Virus record (IMG/VR): IMGVR_UViG_3300034073_001832
Location: 1-32,607 of that record
Direction: 5' to 3' (one strand)
From: a virus
DNA: 32,607 bases
The notes under the pieces are model-generated. The model did not search any database. It saw only the letters and a list, made by a program, of their open reading frames with translations, and was not told the origin of the DNA. This document shows, one piece after another, positions 11,855-25,276 of this stretch. The position numbers and the translations under genes were made by a program. How positions within the stretch are numbered: position 1 is the stretch's first letter; each line of letters starts with the position of its first letter.

Positions 11855-11864
11855 TCTATATTTG
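11834..11864 (+). promoter_or_regulatory. Bacteroidota-type promoter before the divergent polymerase gene
   Basis: TTG (11834-11836) is followed after 20 bases by TATATTTG (11857-11864), matching the Bacteroidota -33 TTG / -7 TAnnTTTG pattern. It sits at the border between structural and replication genes. A transcript from it would start just downstream of the TTG codon at 11862 and favour a GTG start at 11880. The motif is short and could occur by chance. Confidence 0.5.
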
Positions 11865-13217
11865 TACAAAGGTTATAATGTGTATTACATAATAGAAACG
11901 GAAGAACAGTTTCACAAATTTTCACAATACGATTTTACAAATTGTTATGTAGATGTCATAACTCTAAACGATAATTATCACCCCAAGGCATCTGATATAT
12001 CTCTAGTCTACATTAAACCTTTTAGGTCTAGAATGGGGTTTATGCTTTGTGTGGACCACACAGAAACCTTTAGTCTTCCAAAAGACCTTGTATTAGAGTT
12101 TCTTCATGGTAAAATAGGAAACATATACGCAATAGACGGAAAACGTCTTAGGTATTTTATTAATAGAGAGTGTGACTTATACTGCGTAAAAACAGCTAGG
12201 TACATTGCCACAGGGGTGTACACAGAAGAAACAGACTACAATACGGTAGCACATAGATTCTTCTATCAGAAGTACGAAAACAGGCCAGACATTAATAAAA
12301 TAATTCCGGTAGCTAAGCATTTTGAGAAATATGAAAAACTAGTATCAAGTTTTAAATTTGAGGCATCTTGGTATAAAGCCAAGTACTATAAATTGTACGG
12401 ATGCCTGGCTCCAAAGGTATTTAACGAAATAGAGGCAGAGGGGATTAAAATAAATAATGACGTATTTTTCAGTCATTATAAGCCAAAAAGCCCCTTAATG
12501 TCGGTTAAGTCAGACAAAATATACACTCAGTACAACATGTTTACTAGTACGGGTAGACCTTCAAATGCGTTTAATGGTATTAATTTTGGCGCTATGAAAA
12601 AGGAAGATGGTAGTAGATCTTCTTTTATACCATCTAAAGATGTCTTTATAGAGTTTGATTATTCATCGTATCACATTCGTATATTATCGTATCATATCGG
12701 ATACGAATTTGAAAAAGAGGATCTTCACACTCACTTAGCAAAGTTCTATTTCGGTACAGATGACATCACCCCAGAACAGTACTCAGAGAGTAAGGGGCTT
12801 ACATTTAAACTATTGTATACTGATTCTGTAACAGAAGAATTAGAAGACATTCCTTTTTTTGCAAAAGTTAAAGAATTTAAAAAATATCTGTGGAACATCT
12901 ATAAAAAACAAGGGTACATAGAAAGTTTTCTATCTAAAGTACCAATAAAAGGGATAACATCTAAAACACAAGTATTACCCTACATGCTTCAGAGTTATGA
13001 AACGGAAAGAAATATATTAGTTATAAATGATATATTAGATTATCTTAAGAATAAAAACACTAAATTAGTGCTGTATAACTACGATTCTTTCTTATTTGAC
13101 TACAGTAAGACAGATGGAAAAGAAACTGTTAACGACCTTAGAAATATACTTGAACAAGATGGATATAAAACTTCTTGTAAGTTCGGACACAACTATCAAG
13201 AAATGCAAAATATATAA
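11862..13217 (+). CDS. Divergent family A DNA polymerase-like protein
   Basis: The C-terminal half shows the family A polymerase motifs in order (numbered from TTG 11862): TSTGRPS (228-234), motif A FDYSSYHIR (D266), a motif B-like SKGLTFKLLY (K311, F315, Y319), and motif C YNYDSF (D408). The two metal-binding Asp are kept, but E. coli Pol I E710, H881 and E883 correspond to His, Tyr and Ser, and R754 to Tyr307. The N-terminal 180 residues look like an exonuclease-domain remnant (DLYCVKTARYI resembles the usual DTxxA region) without clear catalytic acids. The TTG at 11862 is inside a promoter-like box, so the true start may be GTG 11880. A full PolA is encoded at 21004, so this is a second, unusual enzyme. 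It may be a specialised, repair or inactive polymerase. Confidence 0.72.
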   Translation: MYKGYNVYYIIETEEQFHKFSQYDFTNCYVDVITLNDNYHPKASDISLVYIKPFRSRMGFMLCVDHTETFSLPKDLVLEFLHGKIGNIYAIDGKRLRYFINRECDLYCVKTARYIATGVYTEETDYNTVAHRFFYQKYENRPDINKIIPVAKHFEKYEKLVSSFKFEASWYKAKYYKLYGCLAPKVFNEIEAEGIKINNDVFFSHYKPKSPLMSVKSDKIYTQYNMFTSTGRPSNAFNGINFGAMKKEDGSRSSFIPSKDVFIEFDYSSYHIRILSYHIGYEFEKEDLHTHLAKFYFGTDDITPEQYSESKGLTFKLLYTDSVTEELEDIPFFAKVKEFKKYLWNIYKKQGYIESFLSKVPIKGITSKTQVLPYMLQSYETERNILVINDILDYLKNKNTKLVLYNYDSFLFDYSKTDGKETVNDLRNILEQDGYKTSCKFGHNYQEMQNI

Positions 13218-13245: not shown

Positions 13246-13692
13246 ATGAAAAATACAACGTTTTTTGATTTAACATACGATTACTTGAATAAGCTATTTT
13301 GTACTTTTACAAAGAAAGAAGATCTGGAGATTACAATTACCGACATAAAAAGTCGATATGAAGTGATATATTCCAAGATATTTGTATTAGAGACAAATAA
13401 TGACAACGAATACGTATGTACTTACAACATTGACAGTGAAAATGTCAATAAAAACAACGTATTGCCTAATACTATATTGATGCATAGGAGAAAGGAGTGC
13501 AATGTTCTATACACTATAAACTCCTTGAACAAACTCATAGAGTCTTTAAACAACGGCGTTAGAGACAATAACTATAAAGTTAATTGGAAGGATTATGAAA
13601 ATAGCATTCTCCTTACCCAGAACAACCAGTTTGTTCAGTTAAAGACTAAAATCCACAACATAGTAAACGTGGATAAGTCTTCCAAAAAATAA
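13246..13692 (+). CDS. Unknown 148-residue protein
   Basis: I do not recognise this protein. The frame is open further upstream to 13096, but that part lies inside the preceding gene, and the ATG at 13246 directly follows the intergenic TATTTATA motif, so I choose this start. The protein is rich in Asn, Lys, Ile and Tyr, with no signal peptide, membrane segment or clear motif; single Cys residues near 19, 65 and 92 show no zinc-ribbon spacing. It sits between the divergent polymerase gene and the gp32-like gene, so a link to replication is possible but unsupported. Confidence 0.65.
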   Translation: MKNTTFFDLTYDYLNKLFCTFTKKEDLEITITDIKSRYEVIYSKIFVLETNNDNEYVCTYNIDSENVNKNNVLPNTILMHRRKECNVLYTINSLNKLIESLNNGVRDNNYKVNWKDYENSILLTQNNQFVQLKTKIHNIVNVDKSSKK

Positions 13693-13746: not shown

Positions 13747-14595
13747 ATGTCCAAGATTGATTTGATCAAAGAAAGACTGAATAAGCTTCAGTCAAAGAAT
13801 GCAAGCGGTGGTTATGAAAAGATTGATTACACCACAATTTTCTGGAAACCAAAATTAGGAAAGCAAGTAGTCAGGATCCTCCCCAGGAAGTCCAACAAAG
13901 ATTTTCCGTTCTCAGAAGTATCTTTTCATCAGTACAACATCTTTAAGAAGAATGTTTATTGTTTGGAGAATTTCGGAGAAAAAGATCCTGTTGTTCAACT
14001 TGTACGTGAATTGTACGATGAGAATACAGAGAGTAGTAAAGAGTTGGCTAGAAAACTTAAACCCCGTCTCAAATACTTTGCACAAGTACTTGTACGTGGA
14101 GAAGAAGGTTTAGGAGCTAGGTTGTGGGAGTTTAACAAGACTACTTACGAAAAGCTTCTTAGCATCATGGCTGATGATGACTTTGGAGATGTGTCAGATG
14201 TTACTCAAGGTACAGATCTTACTGTAGAAGGATACAATGATGTAATTAAGATTGGAAAAAAAGATGTAAATTACATAGCTGTAAACGTAACACCAAAAAG
14301 AAATATCTCTCCTATTTCTGAAGATGCCTCCCTTGTTGAAAAGGTTTTAGGTACTCAAAAAGAAATTACCGAAGTTTATAAAAAATATAGCTACGATGAA
14401 GTTAAAAAAATGCTTCACGATTATATTAACCCTCAAGAGCAATCTTCTGAGGAAGTAGTAGAAGTAAAGAAAGAGCAAACAACAGAAGAGCCTCCTTTTG
14501 AAGGCCCATATAAATCTACTGCTGATTATGTAGCTCCTGCTAAAAATAGTGTAGCTTCCAAGTTTGACGATTTATTCGGAGAAGAAGAAAATTAA
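13747..14595 (+). CDS. Single-stranded DNA-binding protein (T4 gp32-like)
   Basis: The 282-residue protein has the gp32 layout: a basic N-terminus (residues 1-17, LIKERLNKLQSK), an OB-fold core beginning near WKPKLGKQVVRILP (33-46), and a low-complexity acidic tail ending DDLFGEEEN. In T4 the acidic tail contacts partner proteins such as the helicase loader and recombinase. The protein has only one Cys (C72), so the zinc site of T4 gp32 (one His, three Cys) is absent. It should coat single-stranded DNA during replication and recombination. A well-formed promoter lies upstream, and the uvsX-like gene follows after 10 bases. The ATG at 13747 is preceded by AATTAAGTT, with no Shine-Dalgarno sequence. 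Confidence 0.85.
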   Translation: MSKIDLIKERLNKLQSKNASGGYEKIDYTTIFWKPKLGKQVVRILPRKSNKDFPFSEVSFHQYNIFKKNVYCLENFGEKDPVVQLVRELYDENTESSKELARKLKPRLKYFAQVLVRGEEGLGARLWEFNKTTYEKLLSIMADDDFGDVSDVTQGTDLTVEGYNDVIKIGKKDVNYIAVNVTPKRNISPISEDASLVEKVLGTQKEITEVYKKYSYDEVKKMLHDYINPQEQSSEEVVEVKKEQTTEEPPFEGPYKSTADYVAPAKNSVASKFDDLFGEEEN

Positions 14596-14605
14596 AATTT
14601 AAAAT

Positions 14606-15679
14606 ATGGCAGAATCAAAAAACATTAAGGGCGCTGTAGCTAGCGCTCTTCAGAAAGGTGCGTCCTTTAATTTAGATAATTTTAAAAAATCTAAGAATCT
14701 AACTGAAGGAGTTAAGTATAAGAGGCAAGAGTGGATACCATTGTCTGAGGCTTTTCAAGAAGCTATAGGACTTCCTGGACTTCCTCATGGGCATGTTATA
14801 ACTTTGAGGGGACATAGTGATACCGGAAAAACAACTGCTATGATTGAAGTAGCGGTGAGTGCTCAAAAGATGGGGAAGCTTCCTGTATTTATTGTAACAG
14901 AGATGAAATGGTCTTGGGACCATGCTAAGATCATGGGGTTTGATGTTAAAGAGTCTGTAGATACAAGCACAGGAGAAATCTCTTACACAGGCAATTTTAT
15001 ATATGTAGATAGAGATCATTTGTCTACTATTGAAGATGTTGCTGCTTTTATTATGGATCTCTTGGATGAACAAACTAAAGGGAATCTACCAGTAGACTTA
15101 GTATTCTTATGGGACTCGGTAGGATCTATACCATGTAGACAATCTGTAGAATCTAATAAAAATAATAATGAATGGAATGCTGGAGCTATGTCCGTACAGT
15201 TCGGCAACTTCGTAAACCAGAGAATTATTAGATCCAGAAAAGAAACATCTCCATATACAAACACTTTGGTAATCGTTAATAAGGTGTGGGTAGAAAAGCC
15301 CTCAGTTCCTATGGAAATGCCTAAGATGAAGAACAAAGGAGGTAACACCATGTTCTTAGATTCTACTGTGGTTGTAACTTTTGGTAATGTAACCGGAGCT
15401 GGTACTAATAAAATAAAAGCTACTAAGAATGGTAAAGAAGTTGAATTTGCGAAGAGGACTAAGGTATCTGTCGATAAGAATCACATTACTGGGGTTACTT
15501 CTCTTGGTCGGATTATTGCAACTCCTCATGGGTTTATTATTGATGATAAGAAGTTTATTGACGCTTATAAAAAAGCACATTCTGCTGAGTGGCTCAAGAT
15601 TTTGGGGAGCGATGACTACGATGTCATTGAAGAAGAAGACAACGGAAGTATAGTAGACAACACCCCTGGTGATGAATAA
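14606..15679 (+). CDS. UvsX/RecA-like recombinase
   Basis: The 357-residue protein has a RecA-type core with Walker A GHSDTGKT (69-76) and Walker B LVFLWD (165-170), followed by SVGSIP, as in UvsX. An NKVWVEKP segment and a KGGNTMFLDS segment fit the DNA-binding loop region of phage RecA-like proteins. It should catalyse strand exchange and help start recombination-dependent replication on gp32-coated DNA, whose gene is just upstream (10-base gap). The acidic C-terminal tail (from about 340) resembles those of other recombinases. Its last codons overlap the start of the next gene. The assignment is strong. Confidence 0.92.
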   Translation: MAESKNIKGAVASALQKGASFNLDNFKKSKNLTEGVKYKRQEWIPLSEAFQEAIGLPGLPHGHVITLRGHSDTGKTTAMIEVAVSAQKMGKLPVFIVTEMKWSWDHAKIMGFDVKESVDTSTGEISYTGNFIYVDRDHLSTIEDVAAFIMDLLDEQTKGNLPVDLVFLWDSVGSIPCRQSVESNKNNNEWNAGAMSVQFGNFVNQRIIRSRKETSPYTNTLVIVNKVWVEKPSVPMEMPKMKNKGGNTMFLDSTVVVTFGNVTGAGTNKIKATKNGKEVEFAKRTKVSVDKNHITGVTSLGRIIATPHGFIIDDKKFIDAYKKAHSAEWLKILGSDDYDVIEEEDNGSIVDNTPGDE

Positions 15680-16709
15680 AGAAAGACTCTTAGATATATT
15701 TTCTAGAATTAATAAAGATGAAAAACCAAAAAACCTCCATCACAATAGCAGAGTGTTGATAGTGGATGGTATGAATACTTTCCTCAGAAGCTTTGCTGTT
15801 GTTGATAGGGTTAATCTCATAGGAAATGATATAGGAGGATTAATTGGTTTTCTGAAGTCTCTTGGACATGCAATCAAACTGTTAACACCGACTCGTGTAG
15901 TAATCGTCTTTGACGGTGAAGGCGGGTCGGTAAACAGGAAGTATCTTTATAATGATTACAAATCTAATAGAGATACCGGGAGAATTATGAACTATAAATC
16001 ATTCAATAACAAGGAGGATGAGGATAATTCTAAGTACAATCAAATGTCTAGATTGATTCCTTATTTAGAATGTTTGCCTTTATCGTTAATGTCCTTTGAT
16101 AAGCTAGAAGCGGATGATGTGATTGGGTACTTATCAAATAAAATTTACGAAGAGTACGATGATTCTATAGTGCATATAATGTCATCAGATAACGACTTTA
16201 TTCAATTAGTAAATGATCGAATCAATGTATACAGTCCTACAAAGAAAAAGATATATGAAGTAGAAAATGTTGTACAGGATTTTGGAGTACACCCCAATAA
16301 TTTTTTAATATACAAAACCTTAGTAGGAGATACTTCCGATAACATCCCAGGAGTTCATGGTGCAGGGGAAAAAAATGTAATAAAGCTTTTTGAATTTGTA
16401 TCTAAGCCTGAACCTAAAACTTTACAAGATGTTTATGAAGTTTGTTCTAATCCTCCTAAAAATTCAGTAGTTTATCAGAGAGTTATAAACGTTCAAAAAC
16501 AATTAGAAATTTTCTATAAGTTAATGGACTTGAAAGATCCTAACATATCCGATGAATTAAAGGAACAGATTTTAGAAGAGTATCATAAAAAAACTCCTCT
16601 ACTAAGAAAGTTTGATTTTATAAAACTATACCATCACGACAGAATGGGAGGGGCCATACCTAATTTAGAAACATGGACTACTCTATTTTCATCGTTGAAT
16701 AATTATTAA
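15672..16709 (+). CDS. 5'-3' exonuclease / flap nuclease (T4 RNase H or PolA 5' nuclease type)
   Basis: The protein carries the FEN-type acidic motifs (numbered from a GTG at 15669): VDGMN (D33), VFDGEGG (D82), LEADDVIGYL (E147, D149, D150), SSDNDF (D174, D176) and GDTSDNIPGV (D221, D224), the last opening the helix-hairpin-helix DNA-binding region. Such enzymes remove RNA primers and flaps during lagging-strand synthesis. The PolA at 21004 lacks a 5' nuclease domain, so this separate protein fits as its partner. I choose ATG 15672 over the adjacent GTG 15669; both overlap the end of the uvsX-like gene, indicating coupling. Confidence 0.9.
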   Translation: MNKERLLDIFSRINKDEKPKNLHHNSRVLIVDGMNTFLRSFAVVDRVNLIGNDIGGLIGFLKSLGHAIKLLTPTRVVIVFDGEGGSVNRKYLYNDYKSNRDTGRIMNYKSFNNKEDEDNSKYNQMSRLIPYLECLPLSLMSFDKLEADDVIGYLSNKIYEEYDDSIVHIMSSDNDFIQLVNDRINVYSPTKKKIYEVENVVQDFGVHPNNFLIYKTLVGDTSDNIPGVHGAGEKNVIKLFEFVSKPEPKTLQDVYEVCSNPPKNSVVYQRVINVQKQLEIFYKLMDLKDPNISDELKEQILEEYHKKTPLLRKFDFIKLYHHDRMGGAIPNLETWTTLFSSLNNY

Positions 16710-16714
16710 CAGTT

Positions 16715-18067
16715 ATGACGGCAAATAAATTAAATCAGTATGGGCATCAGTTCCAGATAAAGGTTCTATACTCACTACTAAACGACAAAGCATTTTTACA
16801 AAACATAGCAGATGTAATAACTGCAGAGTACTTTGAATCTGCTGCACATAAGTGGATTATAAAAGTTATTCTGGATTATTATTCTAAGTACCATACCTAC
16901 CCTACAATGGAAGTTCTAAAGATTGAACTTAAGAAAGAGGAAAATGAAGTACTTCAAATATCTATTAAGGAAGAGTTAAAACAGGCTTACACCGCTACTC
17001 AAGATGATATTGATTATGTAAAGGAAGAGTTTTTCAACTTCTGTAAAAATCAAAAGCTTAGAGACGCTTTACTATCCTCAGTAGATCTTTTAAAGACTGG
17101 AGAGTTTGAAGGAATTAGAAAGATGATCGATGAAGCATTGAAAGCAGGTAATGAAAAGAACATAGGACACGAATACGACAAGGATGTAGAGAGTAGGTTT
17201 AGGGAAGAGGAGGATAGAAAGATACCGTTCCCTTGGAAAGTGTTTAATGACATTACGGATGGAGGAGTAGGCGGTAGTAACCTAATGCTTCTCTTTGCGC
17301 CTCCCGGCATAGGAAAGTCTACCGTAGTTTGTAACATAGCTTCCCACTGTATTAAAAATGGGTACAACGTTGTGTACTATACTTTGGAGTTGGATGAGAG
17401 ATATGTAGGTAAAAAAATAGACTCTATCTTGACAGGCATAGAAGTAAAGATGCTTAAGTTTCACAGAAAAGAAGTAGAGGCAGCAATTAAAAGCCTCAAA
17501 GGAAGGATAGTGATTAAAGAGTATTCTCCAGGAAGAGCTTCTCTAGGTACCATAGAGTCCCACCTAAAGCAATTAGAGGCTAATAACGACTTTATTCCAG
17601 ATTTGGTAATAATAGACTACCCAGATCTTTTAAAGGCTAGAAGGACCCGTAAAGAGGCTAAGGAGGAATTAGATGACATCTACACAGATCTAAAAGGAAT
17701 GGCAAAGGACCTTAAGATACCTTTTGTGTGTCCTTCTCAGATTAACAGGATGGGTGCCAAGGATGAGATAATAGAAGGGGATAAAGTGGCAGGTAGTTTC
17801 CAAAAGATGATGATTGCTGATTTTAGCGTATCTTTATCAAGGAAACGAAAGGATAAGATAAACGGGACCGGAAGATTTCATATTATGAAGTCTAGGCTTG
17901 GGCCTGATGGCATGACGTACTCAGCAAAGATAGATTTAAATAAAGGGTTTATAGATATATCTGAAGATCTTTATGATGAAGAAACTGAAGGTCAGGAAGA
18001 AGGGGGAAAGGGGGATTTTAGTTTAGATGACATATCTACTTTGAAAAGAAAGTTTAGCAACAGTTAA
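16715..18067 (+). CDS. Replicative DNA helicase (DnaB/T4 gp41 type)
   Basis: The 450-residue protein has a helical N-terminal domain (about 1-150) and a RecA-like ATPase domain with Walker A APPGIGKST (195-203), a conserved TLEL segment after the next strand (about 223-226), Walker B LVIIDY (297-302), and SQINR (341-345). This is the DnaB family layout, as in T4 gp41. It should unwind DNA at the fork as a hexamer. No primase gene is visible in the window. The gene follows the nuclease after 5 bases and belongs to the same operon; an acidic Gly-rich tail closes the protein. Confidence 0.92.
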   Translation: MTANKLNQYGHQFQIKVLYSLLNDKAFLQNIADVITAEYFESAAHKWIIKVILDYYSKYHTYPTMEVLKIELKKEENEVLQISIKEELKQAYTATQDDIDYVKEEFFNFCKNQKLRDALLSSVDLLKTGEFEGIRKMIDEALKAGNEKNIGHEYDKDVESRFREEEDRKIPFPWKVFNDITDGGVGGSNLMLLFAPPGIGKSTVVCNIASHCIKNGYNVVYYTLELDERYVGKKIDSILTGIEVKMLKFHRKEVEAAIKSLKGRIVIKEYSPGRASLGTIESHLKQLEANNDFIPDLVIIDYPDLLKARRTRKEAKEELDDIYTDLKGMAKDLKIPFVCPSQINRMGAKDEIIEGDKVAGSFQKMMIADFSVSLSRKRKDKINGTGRFHIMKSRLGPDGMTYSAKIDLNKGFIDISEDLYDEETEGQEEGGKGDFSLDDISTLKRKFSNS

Positions 18068-23320: not shown

Positions 23321-23617
23321 ATGAGTACATTAGTAGCATTACATGACAAAGTCATCTTGAAAAAGATAGACGCAGAGGACAAGATGATAGGAGGTATTAT
23401 AGTACCAGATACCGGAAAAGAAAAGTCAAATTATTTTGAAGTAGTAGATCATGGAGAAGGAATGTATAATCCTCATATGGGAAACTACTATCCCATGAAA
23501 GTAAAAGTTGGGGATATAGCAGTAGTACCAAAATCAGTAGTAACTCAAATTATAGTAGACCAAGAGGAGTATTATGTTTGTAGAGAAGTAGAAATTCTTT
23601 CAATTATAAAAGATTAA
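23321..23617 (+). CDS. groES: Co-chaperonin GroES
   Basis: The 98-residue protein matches GroES over its length (usual 95-100). It starts with LVALHDKVILKKID, carries the mobile loop EDKMIGGIIVP (about 19-29) that contacts GroEL, and ends with a beta strand (EEYYVCREVEILSII). It forms the heptameric lid on GroEL. The groEL gene begins 3 bases after its stop codon. Spaced Asp and Tyr replace some usual residues around the roof loop (PHMGNYYPMKV), which may form the phage-specific dome. The short A-rich leader has no CIRCE-like repeat. Confidence 0.93.
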   Translation: MSTLVALHDKVILKKIDAEDKMIGGIIVPDTGKEKSNYFEVVDHGEGMYNPHMGNYYPMKVKVGDIAVVPKSVVTQIIVDQEEYYVCREVEILSIIKD

Positions 23618-23620
23618 TAT

Positions 23621-25276
23621 ATGATAAAGACAGAGTTTGGAACAGAGTTAAAGAAAAAGATTCTAAATGGAATTAATAAGATTAACGATAGTGTGTCTTC
23701 TACATTAGGGCCTGCTGGTAGGAATGTGATAATTAGAGACGCTGACGGGTCTATTAAAGTAACTAAAGATGGTGTTACTGTAGCTAAAGCGTTTTCTAAA
23801 TTAGAAGATCCAGTAGAAGACATAGGAGCCCAAATGGTAAAACAAGTATCCATTAAGTCCGCAGATAAAGCAGGAGACGGTACAACAACTTCTACGTTGT
23901 TAGCAGCTGTGATGATTAATGATGGCATGAAAGCTATTACTCAAGGATCAAATGCAGTAGAAGTTAAAAAGGGTATAGACAAAGGCGTATCAAAGGTTGT
24001 AGAGGGTTTAAAATATATTTCTAAAGATATCTCATCAGAGGCACAAATAAAGCAAGTAGCAACAATATCAGCTAACAATGATCCTGAAATAGGAGCGCTT
24101 ATTGCTACAGCTTTAGATAAGGTTGGTACAGACGGTGTAGTAGCTATAGAAGAATCTAAAACAGGAGAAACTAGTTTGGAAGTAGTTGAGGGTATGATGT
24201 TTGAAAGGGGATATAAATCTCCGTACTTTGTTACAGATAATACTACTATGCAAACTGTTTTTGAAAAGCCGCTTATCTTTTTGTACGATGGAAGATTAAG
24301 CAGTACAGCACACGTACTTCCTGTACTACAAGCAGCACATTCTGAAAACCTTCCGCTTTTGATTATTGCAGAAGATGTAGAAAACGAAGCCTTAGCATTA
24401 CTTGTAGTAAACAAAGCTAACAATACAATTAAAGTTTGTGCTGTAAAAGCTCCTGACTTTGGAGACAGGAGAACTGCTATACTAGAAGACATTGCTATTC
24501 TTACTGGAGCAACTGTAGTCTCTCCAACTAAAGGGCACAAGGTAGATAAGATGAAGCCTGATGAATTCAAAGCAATGTTTGGTAAGTCTCGTGTTGTAAA
24601 CATAACAAGTAAAGACACAACTATCATTGATGGAAAAGGAGAGATTGAAAAGATAGAACAGAGGCTCTCTGATTTAAAAGCACAAATAGAAATAGCTAAA
24701 TCTAATTTTGAAGTAGAAAAACTCCAAGAAAGATTGTCAAAGCTTACTGGAGGTGTAGCTATAATTAATGTTGGAGGTTTGAGTGAGGTAGAAATGAGAG
24801 AGAAGAAAGATCGTGTTGATGATGCCTTACACGCAACCAAAGCGGCTTTAGATCAAGGTATTGTGCCTGGAGGTGGTATGGCTTTGATTAACTGTAAAGA
24901 GTTCATTAAAGACGCTTACAACAACTGTGACAACGATGATCAAGAGCTTGGAGTTGGCATAGTAGAGAAGGCTTTGTCTGCTCCATTTAAAAAGATTCTT
25001 TATAATGCCGGAATAGAAAATGTATACGAACTTCTTAGTTTAATCGACAAGAGATGTAAAGATGAGGAAGATAACAAAGAGTGGATCGGATACAATGCTA
25101 AGACTGGTGAAGTAGAAGATTTTCTTTATAGCGGTATTCTTGATCCAACTAAGATCACAAGGACTGCTATAGAAAACGCAGCAAGCGTAGCAGGAACAAT
25201 TCTCACTACAGAATCAACTGTATATTTTGTAGGGGATAATAAGAAAGAAGATATAGATTATAATCAATTCATGTAA
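23621..25276 (+). CDS. groEL: Chaperonin GroEL
   Basis: The 551-residue protein is full-length and keeps the ATPase residues: TLGPAGRNV (28-36), KDGVTVA (49-55), GDGTTT (85-90, catalytic D86), the RVDDALHAT segment and VPGGG near residue 420. The C-terminal end (about 535-551) is acidic and Asn-rich and lacks the usual GGM repeats that project into the cavity. Together with the adjacent groES it should form a complete folding chamber, probably for phage structural proteins too large or too different for the host chaperonin. The ATG at 23621 is 3 bases after groES. Both genes look intact. Confidence 0.96.
   Translation: MIKTEFGTELKKKILNGINKINDSVSSTLGPAGRNVIIRDADGSIKVTKDGVTVAKAFSKLEDPVEDIGAQMVKQVSIKSADKAGDGTTTSTLLAAVMINDGMKAITQGSNAVEVKKGIDKGVSKVVEGLKYISKDISSEAQIKQVATISANNDPEIGALIATALDKVGTDGVVAIEESKTGETSLEVVEGMMFERGYKSPYFVTDNTTMQTVFEKPLIFLYDGRLSSTAHVLPVLQAAHSENLPLLIIAEDVENEALALLVVNKANNTIKVCAVKAPDFGDRRTAILEDIAILTGATVVSPTKGHKVDKMKPDEFKAMFGKSRVVNITSKDTTIIDGKGEIEKIEQRLSDLKAQIEIAKSNFEVEKLQERLSKLTGGVAIINVGGLSEVEMREKKDRVDDALHATKAALDQGIVPGGGMALINCKEFIKDAYNNCDNDDQELGVGIVEKALSAPFKKILYNAGIENVYELLSLIDKRCKDEEDNKEWIGYNAKTGEVEDFLYSGILDPTKITRTAIENAASVAGTILTTESTVYFVGDNKKEDIDYNQFM

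Follow-up and report, generated by a model that had tools for sequence, protein, structure and literature searches.

The viral DNA analysed here (the window) is the entire 32,607-base IMG/VR record IMGVR_UViG_3300034073_001832, a genome fragment, and its gene at 11862-13217 encodes a real, conserved and probably active member of the divPolA1 polymerase family with an unusual, fixed active site, as judged from sequence comparison and structure prediction. The protein is not unknown: by homology it belongs to a family of Pol I-like polymerases reported in 2024 (Yutin et al. 2024, Virol J 21:200; PMC11348598), which T4-like phages carry besides their regular replicase, and it does not represent a novel type of system. 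What this analysis adds is the clade-wide fixation of the altered active site, seen in alignments of 239 homologs, together with the steady gene order around divPolA1, the change of regular replicase beside it and the primase in its large relatives. The main text of the 2024 report describes divPolA1 from 14 phages with genomes of 155-190 kb, the immuto phages among them. There it stands beside a regular DNA polymerase (DNAP) of family A, B or C, and its traits are conserved palm residues, a truncated thumb, an inactivated exonuclease and conserved downstream replication genes (PMC11348598). The words “steric” and “translesion” are absent from that main text, which does not take up primase for divPolA1 either, so the fixed steric-gate change appears to be undiscussed in it (PMC11348598).

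The window protein is 36% identical to gp001 of Flavobacterium phage immuto over 97% of the query (E 2e-79) and differs from it in forming part of a separate subclade. Besides this homology, both have a Klenow-like model, retained palm Asp residues, lost exonuclease acids, a short thumb, an extra DNAP in the same contig or genome and the same downstream genes, and these are the traits by which the window protein is assigned to divPolA1. Two peptide patterns gave at least 584 confirmed divPolA1 matches in IMG/VR, and 243 loci were analysed, including those of Microcystis phage Mel-JY01 and of a 484 kb phage genome (LR756508). The immuto and Mel-JY01 homologs, used as queries, brought in further relatives; the LR756508 homolog brought in none. 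Seven matches lie in bacterial MAG contigs, several of them from Flavobacteria, and are probably phage sequence. Phage immuto also encodes, within 30001-80000, a 7-deazaguanine DNA modification set (DpdA, QueC/D/E/F and FolE); a PF01702 search found no match in divPolA1 relatives, but it also missed the annotated DpdA of immuto.

The divPolA2 proteins of barbaviruses and others (e.g. AUR84708) are likewise divergent, exonuclease-less PolA proteins that occur beside a regular DNAP. In the available description they differ from divPolA1 in a motif A (DFKAFE) that keeps Glu at the E710 position, in having another N domain and in a variable gene neighbourhood. An hhalign comparison of divPolA1 with divPolA2 (AUR84708) gave a probability of 0.3% and E 0.18, over the motif A stretch only.

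The open reading frame is intact on the plus strand, with a family A polymerase-like product and motifs A, B and C as initially annotated, and only its start has been moved. The frame is open to a TTG at 11862 (451 aa), and the GTG at 11880 (445 aa) is the likely start because relatives begin at residue 7: most of them lack anything matching the first six codons, and the annotated immuto gp001 begins at that residue. Residue numbers below are those of the 445-aa form, and adding six gives the earlier numbering. Upstream of the GTG, the element TATATTTG resembles the Bacteroidetes -7 consensus and is a putative promoter element. TAnnTTTG elements resembling it are found at -23 to -26 in six close relatives, and such elements hint at a promoter belonging to divPolA1 itself and at a Bacteroidetes host. 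The features of the gene are as follows.

11857..11864, plus strand: putative promoter element of the Bacteroidetes -7 type, TATATTTG, 23 nt upstream of the GTG
11880..13217, plus strand: divPolA1 gene, 445 aa; vestigial exonuclease-like N domain, truncated thumb, palm and fingers
11880..12305, plus strand: N-terminal exonuclease-like domain, residues ~1-142; catalytic acids not conserved, H34, H60 and K88 conserved
12471..12494, plus strand: truncated thumb, residues 198-205; ~8 residues versus ~93 in Klenow
12657..12680, plus strand: motif A, DYSSYHIR; D260 = D705, H265 replaces E710
12780..12818, plus strand: motif B, YSESKGLTFKLLY; Y301 replaces R754, K305 = K758, F309 = F762, Y313 = Y766
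13071..13097, plus strand: motif C, LYNYDSFLF; Y401 replaces H881, D402 = D882, S403 replaces E883

The AlphaFold2 model of divPolA1 (input of 74 relatives; mean pLDDT 93.8, pTM 0.91) is Klenow-like, and the Klenow fragment is its top match in Foldseek (E 7.9e-19). In VIA-align, residues 1-444 match M. smegmatis Pol1 with Z 28.0 over 413 residues (rmsd 3.4 Å), with the Pol I enzymes of Bst and Taq ranking just below; T7-like RNA polymerases are not among the structural matches listed. The structure prediction and structural search proposed in the initial annotation therefore returned a polymerase fold, with no absence of palm and fingers seen, and a match to Pol I over the whole length means that motifs A, B and C are not coincidental. 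Klenow and Bst resemble divPolA1 in whole-length fold (Z 26-28) and in these motifs; they differ from it at E710H, R754Y, H881Y and E883S/A, in the ~85 thumb residues that divPolA1 is missing and in overall sequence (16-17% identity). The 3'-5' exonuclease domain of Bst is inactive as well. In the Klenow alignment, query residue 197 pairs with chain residue 233 and query residue 206 with chain residue 327, a gap by which most of the thumb is removed.

The earlier view of the N-terminal part as an exonuclease domain that has lost its acids holds in the alignment. There is no conserved acid pair at motif I, where residue 25 is E, D, I, V, K or R and residue 27 is mostly I, and no conserved acid in the motif II region (residues 83-92). 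At these motifs the acids are gone, yet H34 (73/74 relatives), H60 (74/74) and K88 (74/74) are fixed, and the N domain therefore probably has another role. The invariant H60 and K88 (window 12057-12143) are a candidate new functional site. Loss of both proofreading and duplex grip would make synthesis distributive.

Active-site residues were compared in an alignment (E 2.1e-6) that spans motifs A, B and C and pairs E. coli Klenow with a profile of the 74 relatives. This alignment agrees with the initial annotation that both catalytic Asp residues are kept (its 266 and 408, here D260 and D402) and bears out its four replacements, i.e. E710 to His, R754 to Tyr, H881 to Tyr and E883 to Ser. Residues were then counted over 239 full-length homologs, 238 of which reach motif C. 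His occupies the E710 position in 239/239 and Tyr the R754 position in 232/239, while motif C reads Y-D-[A/S] in 238/238, with Tyr at H881, an invariant D882 and either Ala (173) or Ser (65) at E883. The equivalents of R668, D705, K758, F762, Y766 and Q849 are invariant in the 239 homologs and that of R682 in 74/74 relatives; further fixed residues in the Q849 helix are E374 (239), N378 (239) and T375 (238). This invariance spans homologs down to 23% identity, and the window protein keeps most of the residues that bind primer and nucleotide. Although the protein exceeds the curated cut-off of Pfam DNA_pol_A (PF00476; 35.2 bits against 34.3, E 9.1e-9) and has the Pol I fold, it lacks the Glu of the steric gate (E710), and on these features divPolA1 is a divergent branch of family A rather than a typical member.

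An altered site fixed in 239 homologs, together with dN/dS values of 0.03-0.08 for divPolA1 pairs (similar to those of the main PolA), argues against a dead relic. The same data disfavour the inactive structural partner considered in the initial annotation. Such a scaffold would retain the polymerase fold for loading or organising the single-stranded DNA-binding protein (SSB), recombinase and helicase; it would account for changes at four canonical active-site positions and for an N domain in which the nuclease acids are missing while H60 and K88 are invariant, a pattern suggesting that this domain still has a role other than nuclease action. However, a scaffold would not need both Asp residues and the catalytic and nucleotide-binding Lys, Phe, Tyr, Gln and Arg, and we regard it as improbable.

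R754 normally contacts the triphosphate. Its replacement by Tyr could weaken dNTP use, and the fixed His/Tyr/Tyr/Ala-Ser changes, read from the alignments, probably retune triphosphate binding and possibly alter sugar selection. Activity has a precedent in the PolA of Thermus phage Tt72, which naturally has Ser at the E883 position, as the window protein does, and is experimentally active (PMC9324360). Mutants of the Tt72 enzyme retain 76% activity for S616A, 35% for E389A (the E710 position) and 4% for the two Asp mutants (PMC9324360). Unlike divPolA1, Tt72 PolA keeps E710 (as E389) and has strong proofreading (PMC9324360).

Downstream of divPolA1 lies a block of replication genes, with the regular replicase further along in the same record.

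13246..13692, plus strand: orfB, conserved companion, 148 aa from the ATG at 13246; generic ferredoxin-like half
13747..14595, plus strand: gp32-like SSB
14606..15679, plus strand: RecA/UvsX-like recombinase
15669..16709, plus strand: 5'-3' exonuclease (FEN/Pol I N-terminal type)
16715..18067, plus strand: DnaB/gp41-like replicative helicase, 450 aa
21004..23310, plus strand: regular PolA replicase, 768 aa; intact exonuclease motif I (FDTET), with E710, R754, K758 and H881

The neighbourhood was counted in 86 loci with at least 8 kb downstream, which are related by descent and so do not amount to 86 independent observations. The order divPolA1, orfB, SSB, RecA, 5'-3' exonuclease, helicase occurs in 85-86 of the 86, with orfB, SSB, RecA and helicase in 86/86 and the exonuclease in 85/86, all on the same strand. 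Upstream, the 975-aa and 171-aa genes have homologs in 135 of the 136 loci with 6 kb of upstream sequence. Mel-JY01 and LR756508 share the conserved neighbourhood, and in the phage collection the nearest helicases are those of immuto, Mel-JY01 and LR756508, all of which have divPolA1, with the next at ~31% identity. Starting from the main PolA, divPolA1 is found ~8 kb upstream in most loci that reach far enough; of four main-PolA loci (10 kb upstream) seemingly without it, two carry divPolA1 elsewhere in the contig and two are short contigs. The product of orfB (model pLDDT 87) has no identified relative and no known family, and is a candidate partner or regulator of divPolA1. A secondary-structure hint that orfB is RegA-like found no support, as the matches from Foldseek and VIA-align were generic ferredoxin-like ones throughout (Z up to 6.7), with RegA absent from those listed.

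The complete PolA makes divPolA1 a second, divergent PolA of the same record, as the initial annotation had it. In the divPolA1 phages, the main PolA has E710, R754 and H881 in 37/37 aligned sequences, every one of which carries Leu at the F762 position and Gln at the E883 position. These residue sets differ from those of divPolA1, and the two enzymes are therefore under different constraints. Immuto-type genomes have PolA as their regular replicase, and Mel-JY01, LR756508 and others have PolB; since the replicase varies between families A and B and divPolA1 stays, divPolA1 is not bound to a single replicase. Phage GroES and GroEL genes (window 23321-25276) directly follow the main PolA, and the same placement after the regular DNAP of these phages appears in the main text of Yutin et al. 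2024 (PMC11348598).

A DnaG/gp61-type primase (phrog_47) is present in 12/12 divPolA1 genomes of at least 147 kb, e.g. immuto gp091, and in the T4 control, and is absent from three shorter divPolA1 fragments (110-124 kb). Toprim_2 by itself was too insensitive a probe for primase, missing T4 itself. That divPolA1 is the only primase of the phage, one form of the primer-making role raised in the initial annotation, might be suggested by the PHROGs scan, which found no primase family among the window proteins, and by a 450-aa helicase too small to hold a primase domain. The window is, however, a 32.6 kb fragment, and with a primase in every tested relative of at least 147 kb divPolA1 is not the sole primase in this group of phages. 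This reading was rejected as highly improbable.

Beside a conventional primase, a His gate that accepts ribonucleotides could let divPolA1 make or extend RNA or mixed primers with the helicase. The steric-gate Glu of family A polymerases excludes ribose, and its mutation (E615 in Taq) relaxes this exclusion and admits ribonucleotides (PMC4215692, PMC9738464). His stands at this position in every divPolA1 homolog counted, whereas Glu is retained in the main PolA that these phages encode, and a short thumb would fit short products. On the other hand, the large genomes already carry a primase, His is larger than the engineered Gly or Ala and may still exclude ribose, and the structural matches listed are Pol I-type DNA polymerases. 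Altered sugar selection of this kind is unlikely but a live alternative. It is equally doubtful that divPolA1 is a natural, clade-wide enzyme (His gate, Tyr for Arg) that prefers ribonucleotides or another unusual substrate and, by making or extending RNA or mixed primers, forms a distinct part of a T4-like replisome.

The best explanation, to which we give a probability of roughly 55% on sequence and model evidence, is that divPolA1 serves as an auxiliary polymerase, distributive and without proofreading, that carries out short synthesis together with the SSB, recombinase and 5' nuclease. The enzyme would be catalytically active, for which Tt72 Pol, active with Ser at E883, provides the precedent (PMC9324360). 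It would work distributively and without proofreading on SSB-coated DNA, for example filling gaps after primer removal by the 5' nuclease or extending recombinase-made 3' ends, and would leave bulk replication to the interchangeable PolA or PolB. We infer the specific step, gap filling or recombination-coupled synthesis, from the gene neighbourhood alone. The loss of proofreading residues, the reduced thumb and the nearby recombinase gene would also suit a translesion or damage-tolerance polymerase. Fidelity is not readable from sequence, however, and a strict core replication block under strong purifying selection suggests a routine rather than an occasional role, making this reading quite unlikely.

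As an auxiliary polymerase or otherwise, divPolA1 is widespread and cannot be separated from the block of replication genes in a large phage group. It poses the question of whether a family A polymerase can function with a His/Tyr/Tyr/Ala-Ser site, and on which nucleotides. If active, it would be a small enzyme with a reduced thumb and no proofreading, which might find practical use and would serve as a natural variant in which to study sugar selection; the same phages supply a built-in control in their regular PolA, where the matching positions hold Glu, Arg and His.
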